Source of the DNA: Armatimonadota bacterium
Lineage (GTDB): Bacteria > Armatimonadota > Fimbriimonadia > Fimbriimonadales > Fimbriimonadaceae
Length of the DNA stretch: 40,913 nucleotides
Direction of reading: 5' to 3'
Assembly (NCBI GenBank): GCA_018268355.1
Contig: JAFDWR010000005.1
Coordinates: forward strand, 1-40,913
The translations under genes were made by a program, and so were the position numbers. Positions 15,553-23,081 of the stretch are shown in pieces. The first letter of the stretch is position 1. Each line of letters starts with the position of its first letter. Under the pieces are notes generated by a model that did not search any database, was not told the origin of the DNA, and saw nothing but the letters and a program-made list of their open reading frames with translations.

Positions 15553-15900
15553 ATGTACGCCTTAAACTTTTATTCCGACCTTTATGGAGACGTGCTCCGC
15601 AACCATCGCAAGTCGGTGACGATCCGGCTTGGTGATAAGACGGACAAGTACGACGCCGGCCACCTGGTTTGGATTACAGTTGGGCAACGCTTCGCCCGGC
15701 GCCAGAAGCTCTACACCGCGGTCCTCGACCGTGTTGAGGTCAAGAAGATCGCCGAGCTCACGCCCCGCGACATCGAGCGCGAAAATCCTGAGTTCCGAAA
15801 CCAGGACGACGTGATCGAGATGCTGAGCCGCATCTACGGCGAGCTCATCACGCCCGAGCACCACGTCACCGTGATCTACTTCTCGCGCGTCGACGATTAA
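15553..15900 (+). CDS. Small ASCH/PUA-like protein
   Basis: This 115-residue cytosolic protein starts at the ATG at 15553, which follows AAGGAG. The sequence HRKSVTIRLGDKTDKYDAGH and VWITVGQR near the N-terminus, then LYTAVLDRVEVKKIAELTPRD and DVIEMLSRIYG, resembles the ASCH superfamily, a PUA-like beta-barrel thought to bind RNA or modified nucleotides. The closing VTVIYFSRVDD strand fits. Assignment rests on pattern, not a search. It converges on thyX with interlocking stops (TTAA, 15897-15900). Whether it regulates nucleotide metabolism is unknown. Confidence 0.7.
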   Translation: MYALNFYSDLYGDVLRNHRKSVTIRLGDKTDKYDAGHLVWITVGQRFARRQKLYTAVLDRVEVKKIAELTPRDIERENPEFRNQDDVIEMLSRIYGELITPEHHVTVIYFSRVDD

Positions 15901-16778
15901 CCCGGGGTGGGCAGGCTCGGCTCCGCCGCGGGCTCGCCCGCAACGCTGCTCTGTAGCTTGGCCATCTTCTCGGCAAAGATCGTTGCGTTCCTGCCTTCAA
16001 GCTGGCTTTCTTCGCCGCGGAGCATCCTCGCGAGCGCCTCAAGTTCTGACCGCGAGAACGTGATCGAACCCAGAATGTGCTCTTCAAACGCCTCGTAGGC
16101 GAGGGGGGCGACCGCCTTCGCGCATTGCGCCAGAGCTTCCGCAAAGACGCGAATCTCGTATTGGGCGTGGGGGTCGAGCCGCAGCCGGATGAAGTGGAAG
16201 AGGTTGTGGAGGTCGATCTGCCAATACCACTCGGTGTAGAGCGAGAGGGGCAGGTTCACCCGCGCGAGCTCGCGGGCGACATTCTTTTCGAGCAGGCTCT
16301 CATAGTTCCGGTAGATCGCCTTCTGCTCTTCTTCGAACTGCTGGATGACCGCCATCGCCTCGTCGAAGTCGAGGGTCTCGTCGCTCCGGCCCTGCTTGTT
16401 GTTCTTCGATTGGAACCGAATCTGGGCCGGATTGGGGACGTAAAACTCGTCCTTCATCACCGAGTAGCGGCCGGAGATTTCGTTGAGCCGCGCGGTGCGG
16501 TGGCGCACCCACTGCCGCGCGATGAAGATCGGCATCTTGGTGTGGAAGGTGAGCTGCACCTGCTCGAACGGGCTGGTGTGCCAGTTCCGCATCAGGTAGT
16601 GGATGAGGCCACGGTCTTCGCGGACCGTCTTCGTGCCCGCGCCATAGCTCACCCGCGCGGATTGGACGATGCGCTCGTCGCCGCCCATGTAGTCGACCAT
16701 GCGGACAAAACCCTTGTCGAGAACGGGGATTGGATGGTCGATGAGGGCTTCGGCCTCGGGGACGACGGTGCGCGCCAT
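15897..16778 (-). CDS. thyX: FAD-dependent thymidylate synthase ThyX
   Basis: This 293-residue enzyme makes dTMP from dUMP using methylene-tetrahydrofolate, NADPH and FAD in the cytosol. The ThyX motif is at 92-104, RHRTARLNEISGR, matching RHRxxSxNxxSxR except that the first Ser is Arg97. Nearby blocks ARVSYGAGTK and MRNWHTSPFEQVQLTFH are also typical, as is the RLRLDPHAQYEIR segment that supplies FAD/dUMP contacts. An acidic, Ala/Pro-rich tail is extra. The ATG at 16778 is chosen over an in-frame TTG six bases upstream because a -10-like TATTCT ends seven bases before the ATG. No Shine-Dalgarno sequence is seen. Confidence 0.95.
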   Translation of the reverse strand: MARTVVPEAEALIDHPIPVLDKGFVRMVDYMGGDERIVQSARVSYGAGTKTVREDRGLIHYLMRNWHTSPFEQVQLTFHTKMPIFIARQWVRHRTARLNEISGRYSVMKDEFYVPNPAQIRFQSKNNKQGRSDETLDFDEAMAVIQQFEEEQKAIYRNYESLLEKNVARELARVNLPLSLYTEWYWQIDLHNLFHFIRLRLDPHAQYEIRVFAEALAQCAKAVAPLAYEAFEEHILGSITFSRSELEALARMLRGEESQLEGRNATIFAEKMAKLQSSVAGEPAAEPSLPTPG

Positions 16779-20499: not shown

Positions 20500-20514
20500 G
20501 AAGTGCTCCTTATG

Positions 20515-20531
20515 TAGACGCTCGTTCTCTA
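20515..20531. promoter_or_regulatory. Candidate LexA operator 1
   Basis: TAGACGCTCGTTCTCTA matches TAGAC-N7-GTCTA except for one base. It lies at and just downstream of the predicted lexA transcription start. Confidence 0.5.
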
Positions 20532-20538
20532 CAGACGA

Positions 20539-20544
20539 AGTATA
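20539..20544 (-). promoter_or_regulatory. -10 element of lexA
   Basis: TATACT on the minus strand would start transcription near 20532, about 33 bases before the lexA ATG. The -35 region is A-rich and poor in consensus. Confidence 0.5.
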
Positions 20545-20559
20545 GACTCTTTTTGTCTA
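20543..20559. promoter_or_regulatory. Candidate LexA operator 2
   Basis: TAGACTCTTTTTGTCTA is a perfect TAGAC-N7-GTCTA palindrome. Its centre is 28 bp from operator 1. It overlaps the lexA -10 (20544-20539) and the -35 of the divergent surA-like gene (20553-20558). Confidence 0.55.
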
Positions 20560-20582
20560 CTGTTTTTTCTTGGTGTCATAAT
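20553..20582 (+). promoter_or_regulatory. Promoter of the surA-like gene
   Basis: TTGTCT (20553-20558), an 18-base spacer and CATAAT (20577-20582). Transcription should start near 20589, 35 bases before the GTG start. Confidence 0.5.
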
Positions 20583-20623: not shown

Positions 20624-22381
20624 GTGAAAGAGGCAGTTTTGTCGGTCAGCAAAGTCAATCAACTTCTCCACAACAAGGGTTGCGTTTGGATCCTCACGGG
20701 ACTCATGGCGCTCGGCGTCGGTTTGGGCACGCTCCAGCAGTGCGGTTCCCATGGCCAGAATCAACCCGAAGCGACCAAGAACACTTCACCGGTGATCTTC
20801 CAAGCGGGCGAGTTCTCGCCGCGAGTGGATGAGCTCAGCACGACGATCAAGTCGCTGACTCAGGGCCGCCCGGTCGAACCGGAGCAAGCGCTCCAGTTCG
20901 TGCAATCGTCGCTGACCCAGCTGAAGTCGACGTCGAGCCTGATCCGGCTCGCTGACAAGCGCGGCATCAAGATCACGGATGATGTGATTCGCGACGAGGC
21001 AGCCAAGGCGTTTGACCTTGAGATCGCCCGAACGCGCGCGTTGATGATCAACAAGAAGCTGATCAAGGCGAATGCGACGGACGCCGAGTTCAGGGATGCG
21101 CTGAAGAAGGCGACCAACGTTGACCTCGACCAAAAACGAAAAGAAGTCTTAGAGAACGCGGTGACGAAGTCCGACTTCCGCACCCAGATGCTTCTCCAGG
21201 CTCTCCCCGAGCGACTCGTCGCCCAGGTGAAGGAGACGATGAAGCCGACGGATGAAGAGGTGAAGGCTGGATTCGACACCGTCGTCACGAAGTCGATCTA
21301 CGTTGATCCCGCCAAGTTCTCGAACTCCAAGGCCAAGGCCGAGGAGATCATCAAGGAGGCCAAGGCCGGAAAGAGCTTTGAGGCTCTGATGGATCGCTAC
21401 CTGCAAAGCCCGGACAAGACCAAGCCCGCGAGCAGCCAGAAGATTTCCGAGCGACGGATGAACCTCAGCAAGGAGCTCGAGGCCGCGCTGAAGGGTGCGA
21501 AGCCGGGTGCGATTGTTGGCCCGCTTTCGATTGGCGGTGCCTACGAGGTTCGAAAGTTTGTCGAGGTCAAGCCGAACGTCCCGAGGGACTTTGCCGAGCG
21601 AAAGAAGACCTATGTCGACGACTATGTCGCGACGAAGGCCAAGATCGTCATCTCGGATGAGATGATGGCGGCGAGCGATTCGGAGATCGTCTGGAAGCAG
21701 CCGACGCTTGAGGCGCTCGACAAGTTCACGACCCTGATGATGAAGGGGACGCCCAAGCCGGAGGAACTCCAAGAGCTTCTCTCCAAGATTGAGGCCGACC
21801 AGGACATGGTCGATCCGCTTCCGGGCGTCCGCGCGATGCTCACCGTCCGAATCGTCGACCAGCTCATCCCGAGCGCAAAGGGTGACGACGTGAAGTCGAT
21901 GTTCCTCCGACGCGCCGAGGCCTACGAGCGAGCACTCGCAAGCTATTCGTCGTCGGCTGGCTACGTGGTCCTCGCCGACTACTTTGGCGATGCAAAGGAA
22001 GGGACCAAGGCGGTCGATGCGCTCAAGACGGCGATCAGCATCATGAGCTCGGAGGCGCAAACCGACCCGAGCAGCATGGCCGTCGGTCGAGCCCGGCTCA
22101 CCGGCGTGAAGATGAAGCTCGCCAAGTCGGGAGTCCTGACCCCCGAGATGGTGAAGGATATTGATAAGGAACTCGCGGCAGCGGACAAGGCCATCGCCGA
22201 CCTGAACAAGGAGATCAAGCAGCAGCAGCTCGAGCAGGATCGACTCGAAAAGGAAGCCAAGAAGCGATTCGAAGAAGAGCAGAAGAAGGCTGGAAAGTCG
22301 CCTTCGCCCAGTCCTTCGGCTTCGCCGGCGCCCAAACCTTCGGCTACGCCGGAATCGGGCCCGAAGCCCGCAGGCAAATAA
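20624..22381 (+). CDS. SurA/PpiD-like membrane-anchored peptidyl-prolyl isomerase, divergent
   Basis: A 585-residue protein from a GTG. A membrane anchor or uncleaved signal lies at about 20-38 (GCVWILTGLMALGVGLGTL). A SurA-N-like helical region follows (FVQSSLTQLKSTSSLIRLAD, GIKITDDVIRDEAAKAFDLE). Then comes a parvulin-like stretch with KAKAEEIIKEAKAGKSFEAL, LEAALKGAKPGAIVGPL and GGAYEVRKFVEVKP, which is the usual PPIC pattern but weak in catalytic positions. The last third is helical and TPR-like, ending in a coiled coil (KEIKQQQLEQDRLEKEAKKR) and a Pro/Ser-rich tail. It probably assists folding of envelope proteins, more as chaperone than isomerase. It is divergent from lexA and starts an operon with rsmI (7-base gap). 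Confidence 0.75.
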   Translation: MKEAVLSVSKVNQLLHNKGCVWILTGLMALGVGLGTLQQCGSHGQNQPEATKNTSPVIFQAGEFSPRVDELSTTIKSLTQGRPVEPEQALQFVQSSLTQLKSTSSLIRLADKRGIKITDDVIRDEAAKAFDLEIARTRALMINKKLIKANATDAEFRDALKKATNVDLDQKRKEVLENAVTKSDFRTQMLLQALPERLVAQVKETMKPTDEEVKAGFDTVVTKSIYVDPAKFSNSKAKAEEIIKEAKAGKSFEALMDRYLQSPDKTKPASSQKISERRMNLSKELEAALKGAKPGAIVGPLSIGGAYEVRKFVEVKPNVPRDFAERKKTYVDDYVATKAKIVISDEMMAASDSEIVWKQPTLEALDKFTTLMMKGTPKPEELQELLSKIEADQDMVDPLPGVRAMLTVRIVDQLIPSAKGDDVKSMFLRRAEAYERALASYSSSAGYVVLADYFGDAKEGTKAVDALKTAISIMSSEAQTDPSSMAVGRARLTGVKMKLAKSGVLTPEMVKDIDKELAAADKAIADLNKEIKQQQLEQDRLEKEAKKRFEEEQKKAGKSPSPSPSASPAPKPSATPESGPKPAGK

Positions 22382-22388
22382 AGCTCGA

Positions 22389-23081
22389 ATGGCCAAACTC
22401 TGGGTGGTCGCAAGCCCGATCGGCAACCTCGGTGATCTCTCACCGAGGTCGGCCGAGGTGCTGACCGCCTGCGAGTCTTGGTGGGTTGAAGACAGCCGCG
22501 TTTCGTCGAAGCTCGCCTCGCATCTTGGGGTGAAAAAGTCGATGCGCGTGATGAACGACCACACGTCGGAGACCCAAATCGCCCGCTGGATCGATGAACT
22601 CGAGGGTTCGGACCAAGAGGTTGCGATTCTCAGCGACGGCGGGGCACCGGGCGTCAGCGACCCCGGCTCCATTGCGGTCGACCTCGCCCTTGAAGCAGGA
22701 ATCGAGGTCGGCGGCATCCCGGGTCCCAGTGCGCCCACCCTTGCGCTCATGCTGAGCGGCTTTTTTGCCCAGCGATACGCGTTTCTTGGGTTCTTGCCGC
22801 GAAAGCCGGGACCGATGCGCGAGCTCTTTGAGCCGTTCGCCGATTCGGCGATGACCCTCGTTTGTTTCGAGTCGCCTTTTCGGATCGATGCCTTGCTGAA
22901 GGTCGCGGGTGAGGCGCTCGGCGACCGCCGCTACGCGATCTGTCGAGAGATGACGAAGTCGTTCGAGCAAGTCTTTCGCGCAAAGTTGCCGACAATACCC
23001 ACGGAGGCGCAGGTTCCTCGGAAAGGTGAGTTCACGGTGGTGATCGAAGGCCGTCGAAAGAAGTTCGCCGAATCTGAGTAG
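22389..23081 (+). CDS. rsmI: 16S rRNA (cytidine-1402-2'-O)-methyltransferase RsmI
   Basis: The 230-residue protein belongs to the tetrapyrrole-methylase fold family. It methylates the ribose of C1402 in 16S rRNA using SAM, tuning start-codon recognition. Visible family blocks are LWVVASPIGNLGDLSPRS at the N-terminus, the VEDSRVSSKLASHLG block, HTSE in place of the usual HNE, VAILSDGGAPGVSDPG, and GIPGPSAPTLALMLSG. The later FLGFLPRKPG and CREMTKSFEQVFR are characteristic. It is slightly shorter than E. coli RsmI because the C-terminal domain is trimmed. It follows the surA-like gene by seven bases with no clear Shine-Dalgarno sequence, so it is likely co-transcribed. Confidence 0.93.
   Translation: MAKLWVVASPIGNLGDLSPRSAEVLTACESWWVEDSRVSSKLASHLGVKKSMRVMNDHTSETQIARWIDELEGSDQEVAILSDGGAPGVSDPGSIAVDLALEAGIEVGGIPGPSAPTLALMLSGFFAQRYAFLGFLPRKPGPMRELFEPFADSAMTLVCFESPFRIDALLKVAGEALGDRRYAICREMTKSFEQVFRAKLPTIPTEAQVPRKGEFTVVIEGRRKKFAESE

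Follow-up and report, generated by a model that had tools for sequence, protein, structure and literature searches.

The DNA target of LexA shifts more than that of most regulators. In Firmicutes and Actinobacteria, the Gram-positive LexA box GAAC-N4-GTTC is a palindrome with a 4-bp spacer and is located at recA, lexA, uvrA and dinB-type genes, as in the system described here for Armatimonadota. However, the half-site here is AGTAGAC where the Gram-positive one is CGAAC, and the recognition helix reads SLRGVTVHL in place of an SSSTVHGHL-like helix. The LexA box of Xanthomonadales, TTAG-N6-TACTA, has a half-site with TAGTA/TACTA that resembles the AGTAG/CTACT found here, but it differs in spacing, does not have the AGAC core and belongs to an unrelated lineage. 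A non-canonical SOS repressor family also has lineage-specific boxes at dinB, recA and imuAB-dnaE2, as here, but the sequences differ. In Balneolaeota, comparison of lexA promoters has identified the direct repeat TTACACATATTTTWTACATA as the LexA motif, and the regulon includes translesion polymerases, a radical SAM protein and an SOS peptidase (PMC7739468). The combination of a phylum-specific motif with such a regulon is similar to our findings, but the Balneolaeota motif is a direct repeat and has another sequence. In 2021, 17 LexA motifs were on record (PMC8565304). The open-access literature on LexA together with Armatimonadetes, Armatimonadota, Fimbriimonas or Chthonomonas yields no LexA motif for the phylum, and the published LexA motifs found there differ from AGTAGAC-N4-GTCTACT, the predicted LexA recognition sequence of this work, which appears to be previously undescribed in that literature.

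The window analysed here is a stretch of 40,913 nucleotides from a 2.7 Mb genome of the Fimbriimonadaceae (Armatimonadota), referred to below as the source genome. It encodes a complete LexA with a winged helix-turn-helix and an S24 peptidase domain (Table 1). The Ala-Gly cleavage site and the catalytic Ser and Lys are intact, with the segments IAAGAP, GDSM and LKRV aligning to E. coli LexA.

The lexA promoter in the source genome and across the phylum

A first-pass annotation of the window had proposed TAGAC-N7-GTCTA as the LexA box, from a pair of palindromes beside lexA, one perfect and one with a single mismatch, whose centres are 28 bp apart. Both palindromes, TAGACTCTTTTTGTCTA and TAGACGCTCGTTCTCTA, are present exactly as described, and the (G)TAGAC half-site is indeed not known from the classical LexA boxes. 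The bare motif is not above chance. With up to two mismatches it has 9 matches in the window, where shuffles give 5.96, and genome-wide there are one exact copy and 19 copies with at most one mismatch, compared with 48 copies of the reversed control pattern. The palindromes are meaningful because of their position and conservation, and not because of motif frequency. Regarding position, the GTCTA arm of the perfect palindrome overlaps the lexA -10 hexamer by two bases, and a candidate -35 of the divergent SurA-like gene overlaps the half-site, both as previously noted. However, the second palindrome does not cover the lexA start as had been claimed; it is downstream of the likely transcription start and upstream of the Shine-Dalgarno sequence, leaving the start codon free.

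Table 1. Positions of features in the lexA-surA-like region of the window
Feature	Position	Strand	Remarks
lexA, 204 aa	19885..20499	-	TIGR00498 188.9 bits; PF01726 LexA_DNA_bind 73.7 bits; PF00717 Peptidase_S24 104.3 bits
AGAGAACGAGCGTCTACA, best N4 match at lexA	20513-20530		10 of 14 bases
Second intact half-site GTCTAC, lexA leader	20514..20519	-	part of the second N7 palindrome and of the weak N4 match
TAGACGCTCGTTCTCTA, N7 palindrome with one mismatch	20515-20531
GTCTGT	20531..20536	-	degenerate counterpart of the GTCTAC at N18 in relatives
lexA -10 hexamer TATACT	20539..20544	-	aligns with a TATAAT-like consensus, +16..+21 from GTAGAC in relatives
TAGACTCTTTTTGTCTA, perfect N7 palindrome	20543-20559
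GTCTA, apparent N7 partner	20543..20547	-	its final two bases (20544-20543) also form the start of the -10 hexamer
Candidate -35 TTGTCT, surA-like/rsmI promoter	20553-20558	+	overlaps the half-site
Conserved putative LexA half-site GTAGAC	20555..20560	-	in the lexA promoter spacer; aligned position in 69/70 Fimbriimonadaceae lexA promoters
Divergent -10 CATAAT, surA-like/rsmI promoter	20577..20582	+	extended (TG in front)
SurA-like parvulin (Rotamase_2) gene	20624..22381	+	divergent from lexA
rsmI, 16S rRNA (cytidine(1402)-2'-O)-methyltransferase	22389..23081	+	TIGR00096

A search of 85 Fimbriimonadaceae genomes identified LexA in 77, and 70 lexA promoters were read. GTAGAC is present in the spacer of all but one of these (about 3.5 in shuffles), and the promoter consensus is cTTGACAn-GTAGACAaA-n(4)-G-n-G-TATAaT-nn-GtCTaC. 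Because of this placement, the autoregulation of LexA that had been assumed for the locus is well supported and would act through GTAGAC in this predicted operator region. Conservation upstream of lexA extends to the half-site but not to the N7 spacing, as a full GTCTA at the N7 distance is found in 1 of 69 promoters, that of the source genome. Relatives show G--TA at the partner position because of the TATAAT -10, and in the source genome the TA of GTCTA is the start of the -10. The half-site is therefore the conserved element while the perfect palindrome is local, and this comparison indicates that the N7 palindrome in the window is a lineage-specific coincidence of a half-site and a -10 box.

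The pairings that dominate at Fimbriimonadaceae lexA are N9 and N18, the latter with a perfect GTCTAC 24 bp after GTAGAC in 22 of 69 relatives, while N4 pairs are rare (2/70). The conserved half-site of the source genome has no N4 partner, and the best N4 match at its lexA, AGAGAACGAGCGTCTACA, is not an AGTAGAC-N4-GTCTACT box. GTAGAC-N18-GTCTAC was also considered as a general box and rejected; it occurs almost only at lexA, roughly once per genome in about one third of the genomes, and is therefore specific to that gene.

Across the phylum, GTAGAC is present in lexA promoters of eleven families (f1, f2, f3, f5, f11, f12, f13, f17, f26, f27 and f29), and is missing from the f4 lexA promoter and from some of those of f12. 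The Gram-positive half-sites, searched for as GAAC-N4-GTTC, were marked in none of the 40 lexA promoters of the phylum scanned. The lexA promoter of f27 contains a perfect GTAGAC-CTAT-GTCTAC, and those of f26 and f29 contain N4 forms with one or a few mismatches. These forms suggest that N4 is ancestral at lexA and that the operator later drifted in Fimbriimonadaceae.

The GTAGAC element and the LexA recognition helix co-vary across Armatimonadota families. All aligned LexAs of the GTAGAC type have the helix SLRG[VA][TA][VI]HLDAL, and in the same alignment the LexAs without the element have SSCTVQ/SSSTVH-like helices. Those of f18, f20, f31, f32 and f36 have SSCTVQRHL- or SSSTVHFHL-like helices, with promoters mostly carrying a GTTTGC element instead. 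Conservation of GTTTGC upstream of lexA where the helix is Gram-positive-like (loci L293, L294, L295, L297, L298 and L299) probably reflects a second, different LexA box.

The GTAGAC-N4-GTCTAC palindrome at other SOS genes

Our comparison of SOS promoters points with high confidence to AGTAGAC-N4-GTCTACT, an 18-bp palindrome with the core GTAGAC-N4-GTCTAC, as the LexA recognition site in Armatimonadota. For each spacing, we counted the promoters in which 11 or more of the 14 bases match and compared these counts with shuffles. In these counts, which come from related genomes of one family and hence are not independent, N4 palindromes are present at 19 of 25 dinB/Pol IV promoters (0.2 in shuffles), 13 of 20 imuB (0.0), 11 of 27 uvrA (0.2) and 11 of 28 recA promoters (0.2). 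Among the controls, dnaE1 promoters gave 0 of 28, and the uvrA coding and far-upstream sets gave 0. At the same threshold, N7 palindromes are seen once each at dinB, uvrA and recA, which is near background and does not bear out the N7 motif at other SOS genes; at imuB the count is 4 of 20, and there a perfect half-site raises the numbers for many spacings.

Most of the 20 imuB loci (a Y-family polymerase beside dnaE2) have GTAGAC at the gene start, typically as TATAATAGTAGACATATATG, and recA promoters of several genera contain TAGACGCTCGTCTA or AGTAGAATAACGACTACT; all of these elements fit the one 18-bp frame AGTAGAC-N4-GTCTACT. With at most one mismatch, this frame has 114 matches in the 85 genomes against 46 for the reversed control (98 against 45 without the outlier G012). 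The exact AGTAGAC-N4-GTCTA alone is not enriched (43 against roughly 37 in the control), the enrichment being visible when all 14 bases are used and one mismatch is allowed, and in the promoter sets. The box directly precedes genes for imuB, Pol IV, DinB-fold proteins (PF12867), PA0069/Rv2578c-like radical SAM proteins, SnoaL-like proteins, VOC proteins and unnamed families, and at an SRAP peptidase gene it is some 130 bp upstream of the called start.

The source genome itself has only two N4 sites with at most one mismatch, namely AGTAGAATCTTGTCTACT, which precedes imuB-dnaE2, and AGTAGACAAAAGCCTACT, which is upstream of mraZ. Two sites have two mismatches, one of which, AGTAGACGTGAATCTACC, is at dinB. 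An N4 box, GGTAGTCTTGCGTCTACC, is present at uvrA and a weaker one, AGTAGACACACATTCACG, at recA. The source genome thus has the element both at LexA's own gene, as a half-site, and at the core SOS genes recA, uvrA, dinB and imuB, as N4 boxes. It counts against the N4 model that the best-conserved site, at lexA, departs from the box it helped define, that a clear N4 box at recA is limited to the 11 genomes counted above, and that the f4 and some f12 lexA promoters have no GTAGAC.

The genomes G059 and G060, which are reduced, 1.5 Mb Fimbriimonadaceae genomes without matches for lexA, imuB, dnaE2 or mraZ, have no GTAGAC at recA or dinB. These two genomes have lost the SOS system.

Further genes were noted during the survey. 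In ten genomes (L325, L326, L327, L332, L333, L341, L342, L346, L347 and L349), genes for proteins of about 140 aa with a sigma-70 region 4-like helix-turn-helix have an N4 box at their start or close to it; they are a candidate new SOS gene family. In three genomes (L321, L322, L227 and L239), the box immediately precedes the gene of an unnamed family of about 310 aa that has no Pfam or NCBIfam match. UvrA is intact in the source genome. In most Fimbriimonadaceae the match to UvrA is divided over two segments (about 1-610 and 609-924), which in some cases are on different strands or separated by tens of kb (for example G036:C3:13585-15423 and 15579-16526; G010:C49); this looks like a split uvrA.

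Other readings of the GTAGAC element

The alternative that survives best, although we consider it unlikely, is that LexA reads single GTAGAC half-sites with flexible partners, N4, N7, N9, N18 and direct repeats all being working operators. Such flexibility would agree with the N9, N18, N7 and further spacings of lexA promoters, with the direct repeats at some recA promoters and upstream of mraZ in the source genome, and with imuB elements, in which a perfect half-site is often paired with a poorly matching one. However, among inverted spacings N4 shows much the strongest enrichment at dinB, uvrA, recA and mraZ, and LexA as a rule binds as a fixed-geometry wHTH dimer. Loss of binding on a change of spacer length, as reported for Bacteroidetes SOS repressors (PMC8565304), also argues against flexible partners.

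It is very unlikely that TAGAC-N7-GTCTA itself, in two copies at lexA, is the LexA box of the source organism. Besides the two palindromes 28 bp apart, one-mismatch N7 pairs (GTGTA, GGCTA etc.) in 16 other lexA promoters and a G kept at that position in 43 of 69 speak in its favour, but the complete match is confined to a single lexA promoter, where the -10 box supplies the TA of the partner, and there is no enrichment at uvrA, dinB or recA. Moreover, the imuB, dinB and uvrA sites of the source genome are N4, and none of its 14 N7 sites with one mismatch that were examined is at a recognisable SOS gene. What stands of the original proposal is a LexA operator region with a (G)TAGAC element that recurs at SOS genes; the N7 spacing does not, the conserved spacer being 4 bp.

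The least probable reading, that a DNA-damage regulator other than LexA binds GTAGAC, could draw on the broken N4 rule at lexA and on the fact that the assignment to LexA rests on sequence comparison, but the element is located in the lexA promoter, co-varies with the LexA recognition helix across families and is absent from recA and dinB in the lexA-less genomes.

Divergent genes, the dcw cluster and a predicted mechanism

At least 43 of the 70 genomes have a SurA-like gene upstream of lexA in divergent orientation. In the window, rsmI is probably co-transcribed with this gene. The distance from the divergent -10 to GTAGAC is 20-21 bp in the source genome and mostly 33-57 bp in relatives. Because of this difference, the overlap between half-site and -35 is peculiar to the source genome. 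The first-pass annotation suggested that the SurA-like gene and rsmI are under SOS control; this is therefore not supported as a conserved feature, although it is possible in the source lineage alone.

In 25 of 28 genomes (L350-L379), a GTAGAC/GTCTAC element precedes mraZ by about 250-300 bp. N4 palindromes are present there in 14 of 28 (0.0 in shuffles), and in several genomes a sequence that resembles a -10 and is directed towards mraZ comes after the GTAGAC element. In the source genome this region contains the cluster AGTAGACAAAAGCCTACT ... GTCTACTAGTAGACATCGTTAGTAGAC (L305 1500-1690; C1:136455 onward). We see a tangible, though somewhat less than even, chance that Armatimonadota LexA also controls the dcw cluster, with lexA keeping a non-standard, half-site-based operator. 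If so, SOS would be coupled to cell division through the dcw operon and not through a dedicated inhibitor. Between the box and mraZ, a conserved GC-rich leader (GGGCGGGGTGCTC ... GGATG) is located about 230 bp before the gene (L352-L379), with no Rfam match and no obviously conserved short ORF. Repeated TCCCA in the same interval might be MraZ sites.

In the mechanism we propose, a LexA dimer would read each half-site of a GTAGAC box with the SLRG-type recognition helix, and bound LexA would repress recA, uvrA, dinB, imuB-dnaE2, lexA and several accessory genes by blocking their promoters. Induction would follow from RecA-stimulated cleavage at Ala-Gly, which would release LexA. The lexA operator of Fimbriimonadaceae would be a relaxed one, with an invariant half-site in the -35/-10 spacer and another one downstream at a variable distance, probably giving weaker, quickly relieved self-repression. 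Weak self-repression and co-operative binding of two dimers are both possible explanations for the departure of lexA from N4 in this family.

For Armatimonadota, the outcome is a predicted LexA motif and regulon together with a matching recognition-helix signature. With the spacing of the Gram-positive box and a different half-site and helix, the phylum may serve as a test case for the evolution of LexA specificity, and the predicted boxes indicate new SOS-linked genes, including the box before the division cluster.
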